Assembly (NCBI GenBank): GCA_002841685.1 | Contig: PHAM01000069.1 | Coordinates: 1-8,851 of the forward strand | Reading direction: 5' to 3' | From: Elusimicrobia bacterium HGW-Elusimicrobia-2 | Lineage (GTDB): Bacteria > CG03 | Length of the DNA: 8,851 nucleotides | Program-made: the position numbers and the translations under genes | Part shown: positions 3,217-8,851 of the stretch, one piece after another | Position numbering within the stretch: the stretch's first letter is position 1 | Layout: the number at the start of each line of letters is the position of its first letter | The notes under the pieces: model-generated | The model's input: the letters and a program-made list of their open reading frames with translations, nothing else | What the model was told of the DNA's origin: nothing | The model's database searches: none

Positions 3217-3288
3217 AAATGGTGCCAGGGGTTGACTTTCGATACTTATTGGAAAAAATGGAAAAAATGGGGACGTCCTTAATTTTTT
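3217..3288. repeat. 72-bp direct repeat, copy A (proS side of the AbiE-like cassette)
   Basis: Identical at all 72 positions to 5302-5373, offset 2085 bp. It starts AAATGGTGCCAGGGG, contains a tandem 9-mer (TGGAAAAAA twice) and TGGGGACGTCCTTAA, and ends in a T-run. It is non-coding. Identity stops sharply: copy A continues with TGAAAATGG, copy B with CTTATAAG. It resembles short dispersed intergenic repeats of the REP/MITE kind, but no transposase is in the window. Confidence 0.95.
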
Positions 3289-3317: not shown

Positions 3318-4160
3318 TTACAACTTTCCGGCAATTTTCTTCAATTGCCCGATGGGCATAACTATTTCCTTATCTGCGAATGTCCGCCCTAACCCGTATC
3401 GTTTCACAAGAATATCAGCGACATCTTTTGTCCCCATGGAAGCCTCGTTATCAAAGTATCTGTATATCGCTTCAAATCCGTCTTTGACATCTTTATTCCC
3501 CCTGTATTTCATCAATTCCTTTTCTACGGATTCCGGGCCGCTTTCAAAATTGACTATGGTATACCATATATCATAAGCGTCTTTTGCGTCTCTGTTCTCT
3601 TCATCCGAATATGCGAAAGCCTTTAATGTCAAAAAAGGTATTATATTCGGGATCTTTATCCGGACTGTCGCCGTGCCATGCATAAGTTTTCTTTCTATAA
3701 AATCCTCAAACACAAGGTACACTCCGCGAAATTTAACGGCATCCACGTCACGGGATATCTCCTTCAGTTTATCCGCCCTGGGCTCTAATTTATCATCAGT
3801 TATCAAATCTATGATTATAGGCTGGCCGCCGCCTTCATACTTTATAAAACTGTGATTGATCGCATCTATTCCGTCGGGAGTCTTTTGTTTTTCAAAGCCC
3901 ATAGACCGGAGTATCTTATAAAAGTTTTTGTATCTGCCTTTTTGTAAAACCGTTAATTTTACCGCAAGATCTATGTCAAGCGTTCCCAAATACTCTTTTA
4001 AGTACGGGAGTTTATTACCGACCAGCAGATCCGGCACAAGCCCGCCGACCAGATACAGATTTTTTGATATACTGCCGAACGCTTCATAGAGTACAGCCAG
4101 CATATTCATCAGCTTTCTCAGATGCGCGGGCGAGTAATCTTCAATCGCTTTCTTTCTCAT
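3318..4160 (-). CDS. AbiEii/AbiGii-like nucleotidyltransferase, putative type IV toxin
   Basis: A 280-residue protein of the DNA polymerase beta-type nucleotidyltransferase fold. The fold signature is LVGGLVPDLL (residues 37-46) followed by GTLDIDLAVK (59-68), giving the metal-binding pair Asp62/Asp64; the third acidic position is probably Asp118 in PIIIDLIT. A later KAFAY (about 180) and KDAYDIWY (193-200) match the C-terminal signature common to AbiEii-type toxins. Characterised relatives modify RNA (for example tRNA 3' ends) with nucleotides and stop growth. The start codon overlaps the stop of the upstream AbiEi-like gene by 4 nt (ATGA), with AAAGGA just before it, so the two are translationally coupled. 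All active-site residues I can recognise are present, so the toxin looks intact. The RNA target is unknown. Confidence 0.82.
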   Translation of the reverse strand: MRKKAIEDYSPAHLRKLMNMLAVLYEAFGSISKNLYLVGGLVPDLLVGNKLPYLKEYLGTLDIDLAVKLTVLQKGRYKNFYKILRSMGFEKQKTPDGIDAINHSFIKYEGGGQPIIIDLITDDKLEPRADKLKEISRDVDAVKFRGVYLVFEDFIERKLMHGTATVRIKIPNIIPFLTLKAFAYSDEENRDAKDAYDIWYTIVNFESGPESVEKELMKYRGNKDVKDGFEAIYRYFDNEASMGTKDVADILVKRYGLGRTFADKEIVMPIGQLKKIAGKL

Positions 4161-5209
4161 TTTGATCCTTTCCTGATGAGCGCAAGGATATGGCCGGCCT
4201 GCTTTTCTCCGCGCAGAGGATTCTTTTTGAGATCAGCGTAAAGCTGAAAATTATCCGCGGCTTTCAGGCCGTCCTTCTCCCGCGCATTTAACAACATATG
4301 ATCGTCCGGCGCCTCAATAACCGTCAGGTTAAATCCCGTATCCGCCGGGGAGGCGGATAAAGCTTTTGCGGGAAATTTTTCAAGCGAATCAACATACACC
4401 GTCACTATGTTAAACGAGGCGAACGGAGCCACCAATGACGCCCCCGCTTCCTGCGTAAAGGCATACTTCATCTTGCTGCCGGAAAGTTTGCCGGCTACAA
4501 CTTCCATCAGTTTTTGCGGATTTTGCGCCCAGAGATAATAATTCTTTTTTGCCTGACGGCGATTCGCTTCTGATTCAACCCAAGCGGAGAGCAGATCGTC
4601 AAAATTTGACAGCGCCAACTTTTTATCTTTTTTTATGACATATCCGGCTTCAGTCATTTTATTAATAACGCGTGAGATCAGCCCCTTGCTCAGGCCTGTC
4701 CTGCCGGCAATATCCCGCTGTATCCATTCCGCTTTCGGCTCAGCAAGAAACATTTTAGTGATACGGGCCGCCTTGGGCGAAAAAATAGACTGGCTGACCG
4801 CTGCCGCCCCTTTCAGACGCCCTGAACCCTGCGCGCTGACGAATATGCTTTCAACCGCTATTTTCGCGTTTCCGCTGAAATCAATATAGCCGATATTGTA
4901 TTTATCGCATATCTTTTTCCCCTGCCCGCTTATAACCGGGACAACCATGACCGGATAGTACGCGGGGTGCGACGAGATAAATTCCTTTAACGCAAGTATC
5001 CCGCTCCTGATATACTGGGGATAACCGGCCGGCTTTACCCCAATGCAGAAACGGTACTTTCGGCCTTTGAACTCGGCTGAGGCTAAAATATCAACGCCTG
5101 CCGGAGTGGTTTTCCCCCCGCGGGATATTTCCCAGCGGGAAAGAAAGGGAATACGCTTCTCCAGTTCTTTCCTTGCGTCCGCTATAAGTTTATTCTTATG
5201 TGTGTACAC
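4157..5209 (-). CDS. AbiEi-like winged-helix antitoxin/repressor with degenerate nuclease-like N-terminal domain
   Basis: A 350-residue protein encoded immediately before, and coupled to, the nucleotidyltransferase toxin. Residues about 30-115 look like a restriction-endonuclease fold: GVDIL (Asp40), then CIGVKP (55-60) where the family normally has an E-x-K, then YIDFSGNA (108-115). The acidic residue before VK is Gly here, so nuclease activity is unlikely. Residues about 145-200 are a winged helix-turn-helix (DIAGRTGLSKGLISRVINKM, then a wing with IKKDKKLAL). The remaining C-terminal half (about 205-350) would be the domain that counteracts the toxin. AbiEi proteins are known to bind inverted repeats in their own promoter, and such repeats are visible at 5231-5267. 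The start is GTG, chosen because AAAGGAGG lies 6 nt upstream. The family assignment is from motifs and pairing. Confidence 0.78.
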   Translation of the reverse strand: MYTHKNKLIADARKELEKRIPFLSRWEISRGGKTTPAGVDILASAEFKGRKYRFCIGVKPAGYPQYIRSGILALKEFISSHPAYYPVMVVPVISGQGKKICDKYNIGYIDFSGNAKIAVESIFVSAQGSGRLKGAAAVSQSIFSPKAARITKMFLAEPKAEWIQRDIAGRTGLSKGLISRVINKMTEAGYVIKKDKKLALSNFDDLLSAWVESEANRRQAKKNYYLWAQNPQKLMEVVAGKLSGSKMKYAFTQEAGASLVAPFASFNIVTVYVDSLEKFPAKALSASPADTGFNLTVIEAPDDHMLLNAREKDGLKAADNFQLYADLKKNPLRGEKQAGHILALIRKGSK

Positions 5210-5301: not shown

Positions 5302-5373
5302 AAATGGTGCCAGGGGTTGACTTTCGATACTTATTGGAAAAAATGGAAAAAATGGGGACGTCCTTAATTTTTT
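5302..5373. repeat. 72-bp direct repeat, copy B (GDYXXLXY side of the AbiE-like cassette)
   Basis: Identical to 3217-3288. It ends one base short of the stop codon of the GDYXXLXY gene (TAA at 5375-5377), so its outer end abuts that gene exactly. The palindromic end seen next to copy A is missing here. Confidence 0.95.
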
Positions 5374-5884: not shown

Positions 5885-7560
5885 TCAGCGCCCCATTTTT
5901 CAATCACCTTTTTTCTCTGCTTTTCAAGATACGCCCCGCCGATCAGCATAAATAACCCGGCGATGATAAAAAACCAGGATTTCTCCGTCAATTCCCAGAA
6001 AACATCAACATATCTTGTGATTATAAGGAGAACAAAAATGACAATGCCCGAATTGAACACCCCTGAACTCCTAATAGCCATCCCGTAAAATATGCTGACA
6101 ACCGCCAGCAAAAATATTATCGTGTTCATGATCACTGTGTTGACCGACGCCAGCGCGGGAAAGAACAATATGAAAAGACTGCCCGAAAAAAGAGCGGCCA
6201 GGCAGATCAATTCCATCTTAAAATTTTTTGTCCTGACAGGGTGCTTATACAGGTTCCAGATCAGCAAAAGGTATGCCGCGATCACCAGCGCTAAACAGAC
6301 GATAAAAAAGAATCCATGCTCAAAACCCGCGTTCTGTATCAGCATTTTCTTGAAAGATAAAAGATACACGCATCCGGCGACGGTCGCGAAACCGATGCTT
6401 TTGTACAGGCCCGCGAAATGTTTTTTGCTCTCACTATGCAGCATCCCTATCAGATACAGGATGACGCCGATAAATAACTGTATGACTAATGTCGTAATGC
6501 CGTCGTATTTATCATTGAACACCTCTGAATACGGGTATAACATAAGGTGGAACCACAGGATGGCGCTGAAGATGTTGATGCACAGACTTTTTTTAAGCTT
6601 ATCCCTGTATGTGAAGAAAAACAGAGCGATGAGAGGAATGAGAAAATAGAAATTCGCCCGCTTTACCGCCGCCGCGTTGAAATAAACTATCTGCCAGGCG
6701 ATAAATGACAGCGAGGCCGCGGAAAAATATTTTTCTTCTTTTTTGATCAGGTAATAAACCAGCAGGCCGCCGCTGATGAATATTGCCAGCCACGAGTACT
6801 GCCAATGATACTCAACAAAACAGCAGGAAAAACTTGCCGCTAAAAGGCCCAGTATATTGATGTTTACCCACGCCCCCAGCTTAAACGCCATCGGCAGTAT
6901 CAGACAAAAAACGAGAACAGGGTAATAATAATTCGCCGCGCTGTTGCTGGAGTTATAAAGGAAATTCCAGGCGATGAGCAGTGCGGACGCGAGGAGAAAA
7001 ACATATTTGTTGTTAAAAAAATACGCCACCGGCAAAACAGGCAGCGCCCATAAGAGCATGATCATCCAGTTACCAGACGAGGGTATGTTGTAGATCTGGC
7101 ATATCAGTATGATACTGCTCCCCCAGAAAATAGAAGCAAGAAACAACAGGCTTTTTCCGAGCAGAGGATGCCCTTCTTTCTCGTAACTGAAATAATAGCC
7201 CGCGAAAAGCGCCGCTATTGTTATCAACAACAGGTTTATAGTGCGTATGTGGGCGGGGATTTTCCGCCAGTTGGACGCCACCAGGAATATGACGCCCACG
7301 CCTAAAAATATAGCGCCGATGATTAAAATGATTTTTACGGCGTCTGTCTTTTTCTTTTGCTGTCCGTTGTCCAGATGATAGAACTGCCGGATCATACCGC
7401 TTTGTTCGGTGTTTATTATTTCCTTTCCTTCCCACAGCGGCAGTTGTTTCCTCAGCCAGTCGCCGTGCCTGTTTCCCCCGAATATAGCGATCACGACCGT
7501 CCTCAGCACCGCATACGCGATGACAAGCATGAGCAGTGAGATTATAATGCCGCCGATCAT
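5881..7560 (-). CDS. DUF2157 polytopic membrane protein
   Basis: A 559-residue integral membrane protein with more than a dozen hydrophobic segments. The DUF2157 hallmark is a short soluble stretch (WLRKQLPLWEGKEI, then EQSGMIRQFYHL, about residues 35-65) followed by a first core helix pair, IILIIGAIFLGVGVIFLVASNWRKIP in outline, at about 77-102. Unusually, an extra helix (about residues 2-27, GGIIISLLMLVIAYAVL) precedes the soluble stretch, which is normally near the N-terminus. The C-terminus is basic and cytoplasm-like (EKQRKKVIEKWG). The start overlaps the stop of the small upstream gene (ATGA) and has no clear Shine-Dalgarno, so translation probably depends on coupling. The downstream GDYXXLXY gene is coupled in the same way. 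No enzymatic or transport activity can be inferred. Confidence 0.85.
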   Translation of the reverse strand: MIGGIIISLLMLVIAYAVLRTVVIAIFGGNRHGDWLRKQLPLWEGKEIINTEQSGMIRQFYHLDNGQQKKKTDAVKIILIIGAIFLGVGVIFLVASNWRKIPAHIRTINLLLITIAALFAGYYFSYEKEGHPLLGKSLLFLASIFWGSSIILICQIYNIPSSGNWMIMLLWALPVLPVAYFFNNKYVFLLASALLIAWNFLYNSSNSAANYYYPVLVFCLILPMAFKLGAWVNINILGLLAASFSCCFVEYHWQYSWLAIFISGGLLVYYLIKKEEKYFSAASLSFIAWQIVYFNAAAVKRANFYFLIPLIALFFFTYRDKLKKSLCINIFSAILWFHLMLYPYSEVFNDKYDGITTLVIQLFIGVILYLIGMLHSESKKHFAGLYKSIGFATVAGCVYLLSFKKMLIQNAGFEHGFFFIVCLALVIAAYLLLIWNLYKHPVRTKNFKMELICLAALFSGSLFILFFPALASVNTVIMNTIIFLLAVVSIFYGMAIRSSGVFNSGIVIFVLLIITRYVDVFWELTEKSWFFIIAGLFMLIGGAYLEKQRKKVIEKWGAE

Positions 7561-7787
7561 AGTTCTTTCGCGCTCTCGCGTGCGACGATTTTAGGGTGAC
7601 TCCGGGATTGTTGGCGGTCGGGTCTCTGCCCCCGGATCATTTTGTATCGCCATTTCTCCGCCTCCTCAAAGGTCTTGAATTTGTAAACGCCCGTCGGGAT
7701 AAATTTTTTGTCTTTTCTGAATGCGGCCATCAATTTCAGAAACTTGTTCAGTTCTTCCGTGAAGCCTTTTTTAATTTTGTTTTTCAT
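7557..7787 (-). CDS. Small basic protein with G-V-Y-K-F-x-T-F-E-E-A motif
   Basis: A 76-residue, Lys-rich protein. The N-terminal half (ELNKFLKLMAAFRKDKKF) is a likely helix. The centre has PTGVYKFKTFEEAEKWRYKM (residues 31-50), then a polar tail with RPDRQQSRSH. Small proteins with this GV-x-x-F-x-x-x-EEA pattern are, from memory, often encoded next to nucleotidyltransferase or similar toxins and may be their antitoxins. Here no such toxin follows; the gene is instead coupled by a 4-nt overlap to a DUF2157 membrane protein. It begins 47 nt after the preceding gene and lacks a convincing Shine-Dalgarno, though a weak promoter could serve it. The frame and coupling make it real; its role is unknown. 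Confidence 0.65.
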   Translation of the reverse strand: MKNKIKKGFTEELNKFLKLMAAFRKDKKFIPTGVYKFKTFEEAEKWRYKMIRGQRPDRQQSRSHPKIVARESAKEL

Positions 7788-7834: not shown

Positions 7835-8041
7835 CTATAGATCGCTGTCCAGTATCGCCATAGGCATACCGGGCCTTTTGAAGCCCTGCGCCTTCATCAT
7901 CCCGAGAACTGTCGCTTCCACCCAGCCCGGATCTTTAGCGGCTCTACGGTAAAGCCGGGGCTTTGAAATAGGGCTTATCGCCACCCCGAGGATAATGATG
8001 GGTTTTCGTTCGTCTTTCGCTTCCGTGATTTTCTTTTTCAT
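7835..8041 (-). CDS. Unrecognised 68-residue protein, second gene of a palindrome-controlled pair
   Basis: I do not recognise this protein. It starts with a basic, charged stretch (MKKKITEAKDERK), then a short hydrophobic strand (PIIILGVAIS), then ISKPRLYRRAAKDPGWVEAT and a C-terminus rich in Met/Gly/Pro (MMKAQGFKRPGMPM) ending LDSDL. It has no signal peptide or membrane helix. Its ATG overlaps the stop of the 145-residue gene by 4 nt, and GGGGAG lies 6 nt before it, so it is coupled and well translated. The conserved-looking Trp/Gly/Pro pattern suggests a small folded domain rather than a random frame. It could be the partner (toxin or antitoxin) of the upstream protein, but that rests only on gene layout. 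Confidence 0.6.
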   Translation of the reverse strand: MKKKITEAKDERKPIIILGVAISPISKPRLYRRAAKDPGWVEATVLGMMKAQGFKRPGMPMAILDSDL

Positions 8042-8475
8042 TTGTTTCTCCCCGCGCCGCGGCTCTTCCGGTCATCAGATATCATGCCTTCCAGGAAATC
8101 GGCGATTTCCCCGTCAATCTTGTTCTTTTTGAGAATACCGACCCATTTTTTGATTTTGCGGGGATTGACGGCGATATTTCTGTTTATTTTTTTACTCTTG
8201 TTAATTAATTTTTCCGCCAGCAGCAACTTGATCAGTTCCGTGGGCTTCCTGTTTTCTTTTTCCGCGCGCTCTATAAGTTTCTTGTATGTGAATATGGATA
8301 TGGCTTTTTTGATATCCTGCGAGGTTAATTTTTTCAGCTCATCAAACAGCGGTTTTTCCCCGTCATTGAACGCGATACAGACATTCTTGGAATGCCGTTT
8401 CCCGTCCGAGGCTATCAACGGGAGATACACCGACAAATAATTTCTTTTCACGTCTTTAATTTTACCTTTTCTCAT
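8038..8475 (-). CDS. Unrecognised 145-residue Lys-rich protein, first gene of a palindrome-controlled pair
   Basis: I do not recognise this protein. Start ATG at 8475 is chosen because AAAGGAGG lies 6 nt upstream; the frame is open further up to 8523 but that part is the promoter itself. The N-terminal 35 residues look like beta strands (RNYLSVYLPLIASD, SKNVCIAF). Residues about 38-90 look helical and include KPLFDELKKLTSQDIKKAIS and PTELIKLLLAEKL. Residues 90-120 are strongly basic (INKSKKINRN, NPRKIKKWVG). The protein ends with a helix and a charged tail. Its high Lys content and helical core would suit nucleic-acid binding, and an autorepressor acting at the palindrome in its promoter is plausible but unproven. 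Codon and base composition are clearly AT-richer than proS, consistent with acquisition. Confidence 0.7.
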   Translation of the reverse strand: MRKGKIKDVKRNYLSVYLPLIASDGKRHSKNVCIAFNDGEKPLFDELKKLTSQDIKKAISIFTYKKLIERAEKENRKPTELIKLLLAEKLINKSKKINRNIAVNPRKIKKWVGILKKNKIDGEIADFLEGMISDDRKSRGAGRNK

Positions 8476-8481
8476 TTCATT

Positions 8482-8489
8482 CCTCCTTT
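8482..8489 (-). promoter_or_regulatory. Strong ribosome binding site deciding the start of the 145-residue gene
   Basis: AAAGGAGG, 6 nt before the ATG at 8475-8473. It starts almost at the predicted transcription start, so the leader is only about 13 nt. Confidence 0.8.
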
Positions 8490-8494
8490 GCTGT

Positions 8495-8523
8495 ATCATA
8501 TCACATTGTGATATGCCTGTCAA
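8495..8523 (-). promoter_or_regulatory. Strong sigma-70-type promoter of the two-gene unknown module
   Basis: TTGACA (8518-8523), exactly 17 nt, then TATGAT (8495-8500). This is the best promoter in the window. Predicted start of transcription is near 8488. Confidence 0.8.
8497..8515. promoter_or_regulatory. 19-bp palindromic operator inside the promoter spacer
   Basis: CATATCACATTGTGATATG is a perfect palindrome with one central base (8506). It fills most of the -35/-10 spacer and overlaps the -10, the position expected for tight repression by a dimeric regulator. Confidence 0.75.
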
Positions 8524-8569: not shown

Positions 8570-8609
8570 TCCAGCTTAATTCATGACGCAGTGCGTCACA
8601 TTTTGGATA
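8570..8609. repeat. 40-bp imperfect direct repeat, copy 1, with 15-bp palindrome
   Basis: It matches 8647-8686 at 32 of 40 positions, 77 bp away. It contains TGACGCAGTGCGTCA, palindromic about its central base (8584-8598). The repeat is the coding sequence for the CDALRHELSW segment of the second DUF1016 fragment, so the palindrome has a coding explanation. Confidence 0.8.
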
Positions 8610-8646
8610 GGAAAGATAAAATTGCCTGATGTTGCGCAGAAGTGTG

Positions 8647-8686
8647 TCCAGCTTAATTCTCGACGCACTGCGTCGAGAATTGGATA
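8647..8686. repeat. 40-bp imperfect direct repeat, copy 2, with 27-bp perfect palindrome
   Basis: It contains a perfect palindrome at 8655-8681 (13-bp arms around C8668; core CGACGCACTGCGTCG). It encodes ILDAVRREL of the first DUF1016 fragment. No T-run follows on either strand, so it is not a normal terminator. The hairpin may have promoted the duplication and frameshift seen here. Confidence 0.85.
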
Positions 8687-8749
8687 CGTCTGATAGAATT
8701 TACGCATATTCCATAAATTACTGCTATCAAATCCTTTACCAAAATTGTC

Positions 8750-8851
8750 TAATAGAGGGAACGGCAAATACATCGTAACCCCTTTTATTTGAAAAAGCAA
8801 TTTTTTTCTTAAGCAAAGAACAAAGATCAACAGGCGGGATCATAGCAATGT
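8750..8851. other. Right edge, no recognisable gene
   Basis: Frames on the minus strand are open but short, and I see no family signature upstream of the DUF1016 segment. This may be the eroded 5' part of that gene or unrelated sequence. There are no promoter, tRNA or repeat signals that I can support. Confidence 0.4.

Follow-up and report, generated by a model that had tools for sequence, protein, structure and literature searches.

Does the pair of small overlapping genes behind a near-consensus promoter in this stretch of DNA form a toxin-antitoxin module in its own right, or does the palindrome in that promoter belong to one of the two genes, with the other as a replaceable companion? The window, by which we mean the whole stretch analysed, is one entire contig (C19, 8,851 bases) of an Elusimicrobia-like metagenome-assembled genome (MAG), whose 1.78-Mb assembly comprises 94 contigs. 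A sequence-only reading of the window had described the promoter and palindrome, an ideal ribosome binding site, two coupled genes of no recognisable family and a wrecked DUF1016 gene nearby, and had proposed toxin-antitoxin-like control of the pair. The individual features were borne out almost throughout; the status of the pair was not.

Promoter, palindrome and coding frames

The promoter (TTGACA-17 nt-TATGAT, 8523-8495, minus strand) is sigma-70-like and matches the consensus at 11 of 12 positions; by itself it is weak evidence, because shuffles average 11.4 such sites against 18 in the window. The palindrome is perfect (CATATCACA-A-TGTGATATG) and runs through most of the spacer and into the -10 box as far as its fourth base; its earlier placement within the spacer was slightly loose. 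Its own sequence is expected zero times in shuffles. Dinucleotide shuffles of the window yield on average 0.17 perfect inverted repeats with arms of 9 or more and a loop no longer than 1, and the window itself holds two, the promoter palindrome and a 27-nt one within a DUF1016 remnant. At this rate the palindrome alone is only moderately unusual; what counts is its conservation. A strong ribosome binding site, AAAGGAGG, stands immediately 5' of the ATG at 8475, and Rfam and tRNA scans of the window returned no matches.

Both genes are read from this one promoter, their frames overlapping by 4 nt (ATGA), and their order is the same in the congeners G001 and G002. The dN/dS values among three congeners (Table 1), together with third-position changes that dominate only in the annotated frame (the other two forward frames of the 68-codon gene are without the pattern), indicate that both frames are real genes under purifying selection. 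Profile searches against Pfam, NCBIfam, PADLOC and PHROGs gave no convincing family match for either the 145- or the 68-residue protein.

Table 1. Positions of the features in the window, and operator sequences in related genomes
Feature	Positions	Strand	Remarks
-35 hexamer TTGACA	8518-8523	-	Conserved in G001 (two loci), G002, G013, G044, G149
-10 hexamer TATGAT	8495-8500	-	Overlaps palindrome
19-nt palindrome CATATCACAATGTGATATG, proposed operator of the 145-residue protein	8497-8515	-	Co-conserved with the 145-residue family
145-codon gene, predicted single-chain ribbon-helix-helix autorepressor	8041-8475 (stop to 8038)	-	dN/dS 0.18-0.25; homologues in nine other genomes; AF2 model and VIA-align match to 1u9p
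68-codon gene, translationally coupled, putative genus-restricted cargo	7838-8041 (stop to 7835)	-	dN/dS about 0.2 (0.19-0.21); only in G000, G001, G002
Two truncated DUF1016/YhcG remnants	8570-8754	-	Both end at 'DALRRELSWTH' motif; outside operon; common to G001
Operator, G001 (two copies)			CTTGACAAGTATATCACA(A/T)TGTGATAAAAT
Operator, G002			CTTGACAAACATATCACAAAGTGATATACT
Operator, G013			CTTGACATATATATCACAGTGTGATATAAT, perfect 19-nt palindrome
Operator, G008			ATTGAAAAATATATCACACTGTGTTATAAT
Operator, G044			CTTGACAGGTATATCACATCGTGATAG, heads operon with family member as second gene

The 145-residue family and its operator across genomes

By profile search, the 145-residue family is present in 10 of 386 genomes; a further match (L007, in G060) was dropped, because a long protease-like gene occupies the opposite strand there. 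Ahead of members that are only 30-67% identical to the window protein, one promoter-operator geometry recurs, namely TTGACA, 2-3 nt and then ATATCACANTGTGATA extending to the -10 box. Half of the operator is kept in G149, and the divergent members in G089, G149, G243 and G285 are without the exact operator, that of G089 having a different palindrome, ATACTACATTGTAGTAT, ahead of it. Across the 386 genomes, six sites match the composite pattern TTGACANNNATATCACANTGTGATA with at most one mismatch, all of them heading family operons and one lying in another phylum; with at most two mismatches there are 12 sites, seven of them family loci, and of the five others, four of which were inspected directly or via an identical copy, one lies in a HicAB-like promoter. 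A reversed control pattern had no places in the same 386 genomes, and exact TATCACANTGTGATA, sought in 17 genomes, was found at four places, all at family loci. The congeners are not independent in these counts; separate lineages are represented by G013 and G008, which belong to other families within the phylum, and by G044, from a different phylum. Taken from sequence comparison, these results indicate that the palindromic promoter tracks the 145-residue family and not the pair.

Copies of the operator also occur away from the family. Exact TTGACANNNATATCACANTGTGATA is present in five viral contigs of IMG/VR (L091, L092, L093, L094 and L095, three of which are related phages); family genes are absent from the searched stretches of these contigs, and two permuted controls gave zero and zero in viral contigs. 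In four of the five, a short phage gene comes next. A near copy, CTATCACATTGTGATAG, lies in a HicA-HicB-like promoter (L107, G286:C42:18004-18028) whose antitoxin has an XRE-like C-terminus. The viral copies suggest either that phages use the host's repressor or that another regulator reads the palindrome, and they therefore lower confidence in exclusive recognition, not in the link between family and operator.

The genes that accompany the family change from genome to genome. In G001, one operon consists of the operator, a 75-residue gene, an intact YhcG/DUF1016 nuclease gene (PADLOC candidate defence family PDC-S02) and a 137-residue homologue, while in G044 a DUF6847 gene stands between the operator and the family member. 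Fic/Doc genes with HTH partners adjoin the family in G002, G001:C269 and G008, DUF1016 genes in G044 and in G149 (there with HsdM), and a type III restriction-like gene in G285; an AbiEi-like gene is also among the contexts. In G089, a zinc-ribbon protein of 222 residues, encoded directly 3' of a BrnT toxin (Pfam PF04365), has the family domain as its C-terminal portion. BrnT had no match among the window proteins scanned, the G089 relative alone having one, and the window holds no known toxin.

The 68-residue gene has a much narrower range, being found only in G000, G001 and G002 (3 of 386 genomes, all of one genus), plus a 3' remnant in G001. The two genes adjoin in all three congeners that carry the module, which is absent from the congener G003 and is therefore accessory. 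Among named records, the two closest carriers are an Elusimicrobia MAG (PEUP01000086) and an unclassified MAG (VMTI01000239), and a scan of genome contigs gave no carriers beyond two congeners. No relatives of the 68-residue protein were found in plasmids or of the 145-residue protein in plasmid or phage records, and a protein search of viral contigs gave none for either. Between the window and G001, identity is 95% over the 258 bases upstream, 80% in the 145-codon gene and 91% in the 68-codon gene, with dS of 1.04 and 0.29 in the two genes, respectively; in G001 they stand about 150 bp apart. This mosaic divergence suggests that the parts have been reshuffled, and the 68-residue gene is most likely a local passenger with a putative cargo role.

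Of the toxin-antitoxin-like control put forward in the sequence-only reading, the putative self-regulation, the co-conservation of the operator with the 145-residue family beyond the genus and the toxin-antitoxin and defence surroundings stand, and the pair as a conserved unit falls, given 3 genomes with the 68-residue gene versus ten with the family. Conservation of the pair with its palindrome holds within the genus; beyond it, the palindrome follows the 145-residue gene without the 68-residue gene. Neither gene proved to belong to a known unrelated family, and homologues of the two do lie side by side behind the palindrome.

The region also carries traces of rearrangement. The DUF1016 wreck upstream is real, consisting in the window of truncated remnants only, compared with intact genes in G001:C228 and G002:C14. 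Both remnants break off just past the motif of the 27-nt palindrome (8655-8681, one central base), which is matched in the G001:C228 and G002:C14 stretches. At the right end of the window, about 97 bases (8755-8851) recur at roughly twelve contig ends in this genome; they probably represent the terminus of an insertion sequence present in several copies, by which the DUF1016 gene was cut. In L022 (G001:C2), a broken extra promoter and half palindrome fused to a DUF1016 remnant (9106-9142, 9336-9361) lie upstream of the intact operator and are a trace of recombination there. Further along the same locus (12431-12543), past an AbiEi-like gene and a short reading frame, perhaps its partner cut short, comes a second copy of the final 55 bases of the 68-codon gene (91% identical), and beyond it stands a relative of the 76-codon gene that the window has at 7557-7787. 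The end of the 68-codon gene has the look of a recombination joint. Elsewhere in the window, a 72-nt exact direct repeat (3217-3288 and 5302-5373) that may mark an insertion flanks a two-gene pair (3318-5209) encoding, with a 4-nt overlap, a 350-residue winged-helix protein and a 280-residue nucleotidyltransferase-looking protein, resembling an AbiE-like toxin-antitoxin pair.

Predicted fold of the 145-residue protein

An AlphaFold2 (AF2) model of the 145-residue protein, built from a ten-member alignment (mean pLDDT 78.6, pTM 0.54), has a beta-hairpin at 12-36 (strands 12-21 and 27-36) and helices at 38-47, 52-59, 64-73 and 78-91, a block with pLDDT of about 86-94, followed by a loose linker and two further helices at the C-terminus (105-117, 122-140). 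For residues 11-96, the top VIA-align match was the permuted single-chain Arc 1u9p (Z 8.1, rmsd 2.9, 75 of 96 residues), where a Z near 8 can reflect a common arrangement; the next-best matches, at Z 4.4 and below, concerned the C-terminal helices only. Foldseek gave no significant match for this model in the PDB. Pfam RHH_5 matched two of the ten members weakly (E 0.031 at best), and a PDB sequence search returned weak, mostly cullin matches (E 0.01-0.09; AvtR at E 0.39) that we do not count as evidence. A profile self-comparison for internal duplication was not significant (21 of 200 shuffles). A simple ribbon-helix-helix (RHH) at residues 56-91 was considered and dropped, as the model has helices 52-59 and 64-73 instead. 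The RHH fold of residues 11-96 is thus a supported prediction. In it, the invariant R11 and Y17 would share a face of strand 1, a placement that suits contacts to bases or backbone; S15 and the 31/33/35 face of strand 2 are further candidates for contacts in the major groove. For the 68-residue protein, whose model is of modest confidence (pLDDT 69.6), no known fold was matched, and Foldseek against the PDB and viral models found nothing significant.

Natural Arc is a small homodimer. The structure 1u9p is an Arc dimer engineered into one rearranged chain (cited in PMC10450177 and PMC2096629). Residues 11-96 resemble it in the order of elements (a hairpin, then four helices), and P22 Arc likewise has a palindromic operator of about 20 bp over its promoter; 1u9p differs in being engineered and in sharing about 12% identity, and the 145-residue protein has in addition a helical C-terminus and a defence-island setting. 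Single-chain RHH folds also occur naturally, in MJ0366 and the C-terminal domain of VirC2 (PMC2848546, PMC5425179), and the CasDinG N-terminal domain, DndE and WYL1 are reported to have a similar arrangement (PMC10450177). Like our predicted model, these proteins have two RHH-like halves per chain, and their DNA binding is proposed or shown; no sequence relationship to the 145-residue protein was found. VirC2, MJ0366, DndE and omega are missing from the VIA-align list, where absence excludes nothing. In the portions available, PMC2848546, PMC5425179 and PMC10450177 do not describe a single-chain RHH protein as autorepressor of a toxin-antitoxin-like operon.

At the level of the site alone, the palindrome can be likened to the targets of omega (ParB of pSM19035), an RHH protein that binds WATCACW heptads at sites overlapping promoters (PMC9499535). 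The half-site TATCACA fits this heptad, which we take as a lead only; omega uses arrays of 7-10 heptads per site, whereas here there is one inverted pair with one base between. A literature search for the operator sequence found no paper.

Proposed role and competing explanations

We consider it likely that the operon is repressed by its own 145-residue product, a predicted single-chain RHH protein residing in defence and toxin-antitoxin islands with exchangeable partners. According to the model, residues 11-96 would form a pseudo-dimeric RHH domain, with a beta-hairpin that would enter the major groove and, after it, two pairs of helices. The palindrome, placed between the -35 and -10 boxes and partly on top of them, has two ATATCACA half-sites; we infer that two protomers would occupy these, cover the spacer and -10 box and so exclude RNA polymerase. 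Loss of the protein would switch the operon on. The unit of operator and repressor would move among toxin-antitoxin and defence islands, taking different partner genes into its operon, here the 68-residue gene, whose expression would be tied to that of the repressor through the translational overlap. Should this gene prove harmful, the two would act as a toxin-antitoxin module that is derepressed when the repressor is lost, and any release of toxin would depend on the passenger. Toxin-antitoxin behaviour of this exact pair is plausible.

The nearest alternative is a classic two-gene type II system, in which the 145-residue protein would be antitoxin and autorepressor and its helical C-terminus (105-140) would neutralise a 68-residue toxin. 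The gene order, the overlap, the strong, presumably self-regulated promoter, the adjacency in all three congeners and the toxin-antitoxin neighbours are consistent with it, as are the predicted helical region beyond the DNA-binding domain and the family domain behind BrnT in G089. BrnT/BrnA and other type II modules, as small self-regulated operons, resemble the putatively self-regulated pair in layout; they differ in that the window is without a known toxin, the larger gene comes first and the second is unassigned. We regard such a system as possible and on the unlikely side, since the 68-residue gene is confined to one genus, the operator and 145-residue gene occur without it, its model matches no known fold, and the unequal divergence and spacing in G001 argue that the two are not evolving as a locked pair. 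A similarly tentative standing is given to the view that the protein chiefly regulates a YhcG/DUF1016 nuclease cassette, of which the window would hold a decayed version, the nuclease wrecked and the repressor and a small follower left behind. The G001 operon with its intact nuclease gene points this way, as do the remnants just upstream in G000 and G001 and the DUF1016 neighbours in G044 and G149; against it, no DUF1016 gene lies within the stretch read in G002, G008, G013, G243, G285 or G089, and both window genes are still under purifying selection.

It is very unlikely that the palindrome instead serves another, widespread regulator, such as a helix-turn-helix protein of the XRE/HigA/HicB type from host or phage, and that the 145-residue protein has a different task. 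The viral copies and the HicAB-like promoter of G286, with its XRE-type antitoxin region, would fit such a regulator; however, the restriction of near-exact sites in the 386 genomes to family loci is what a widespread foreign regulator would not explain.

The autorepressor reading can be taken further, to a new family of natural permuted single-chain RHH repressors with their own promoter-operator, acting as a partner-swapping antitoxin or regulator of defence cargo, namely the YhcG nuclease, BrnT, DUF6847 and, in the window, a new toxin of 68 residues; in this full form we judge it rather improbable. An unclassified family has been linked by comparison alone to a specific operator that crosses phyla, which makes its DNA recognition testable with one protein and one 19-bp duplex. 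The changing partners supply candidates for toxins or defence effectors, headed by the 68-residue gene. If the predicted fold is true, a self-regulating switch of defence islands would use in nature the permuted single-chain Arc arrangement that engineers had devised.
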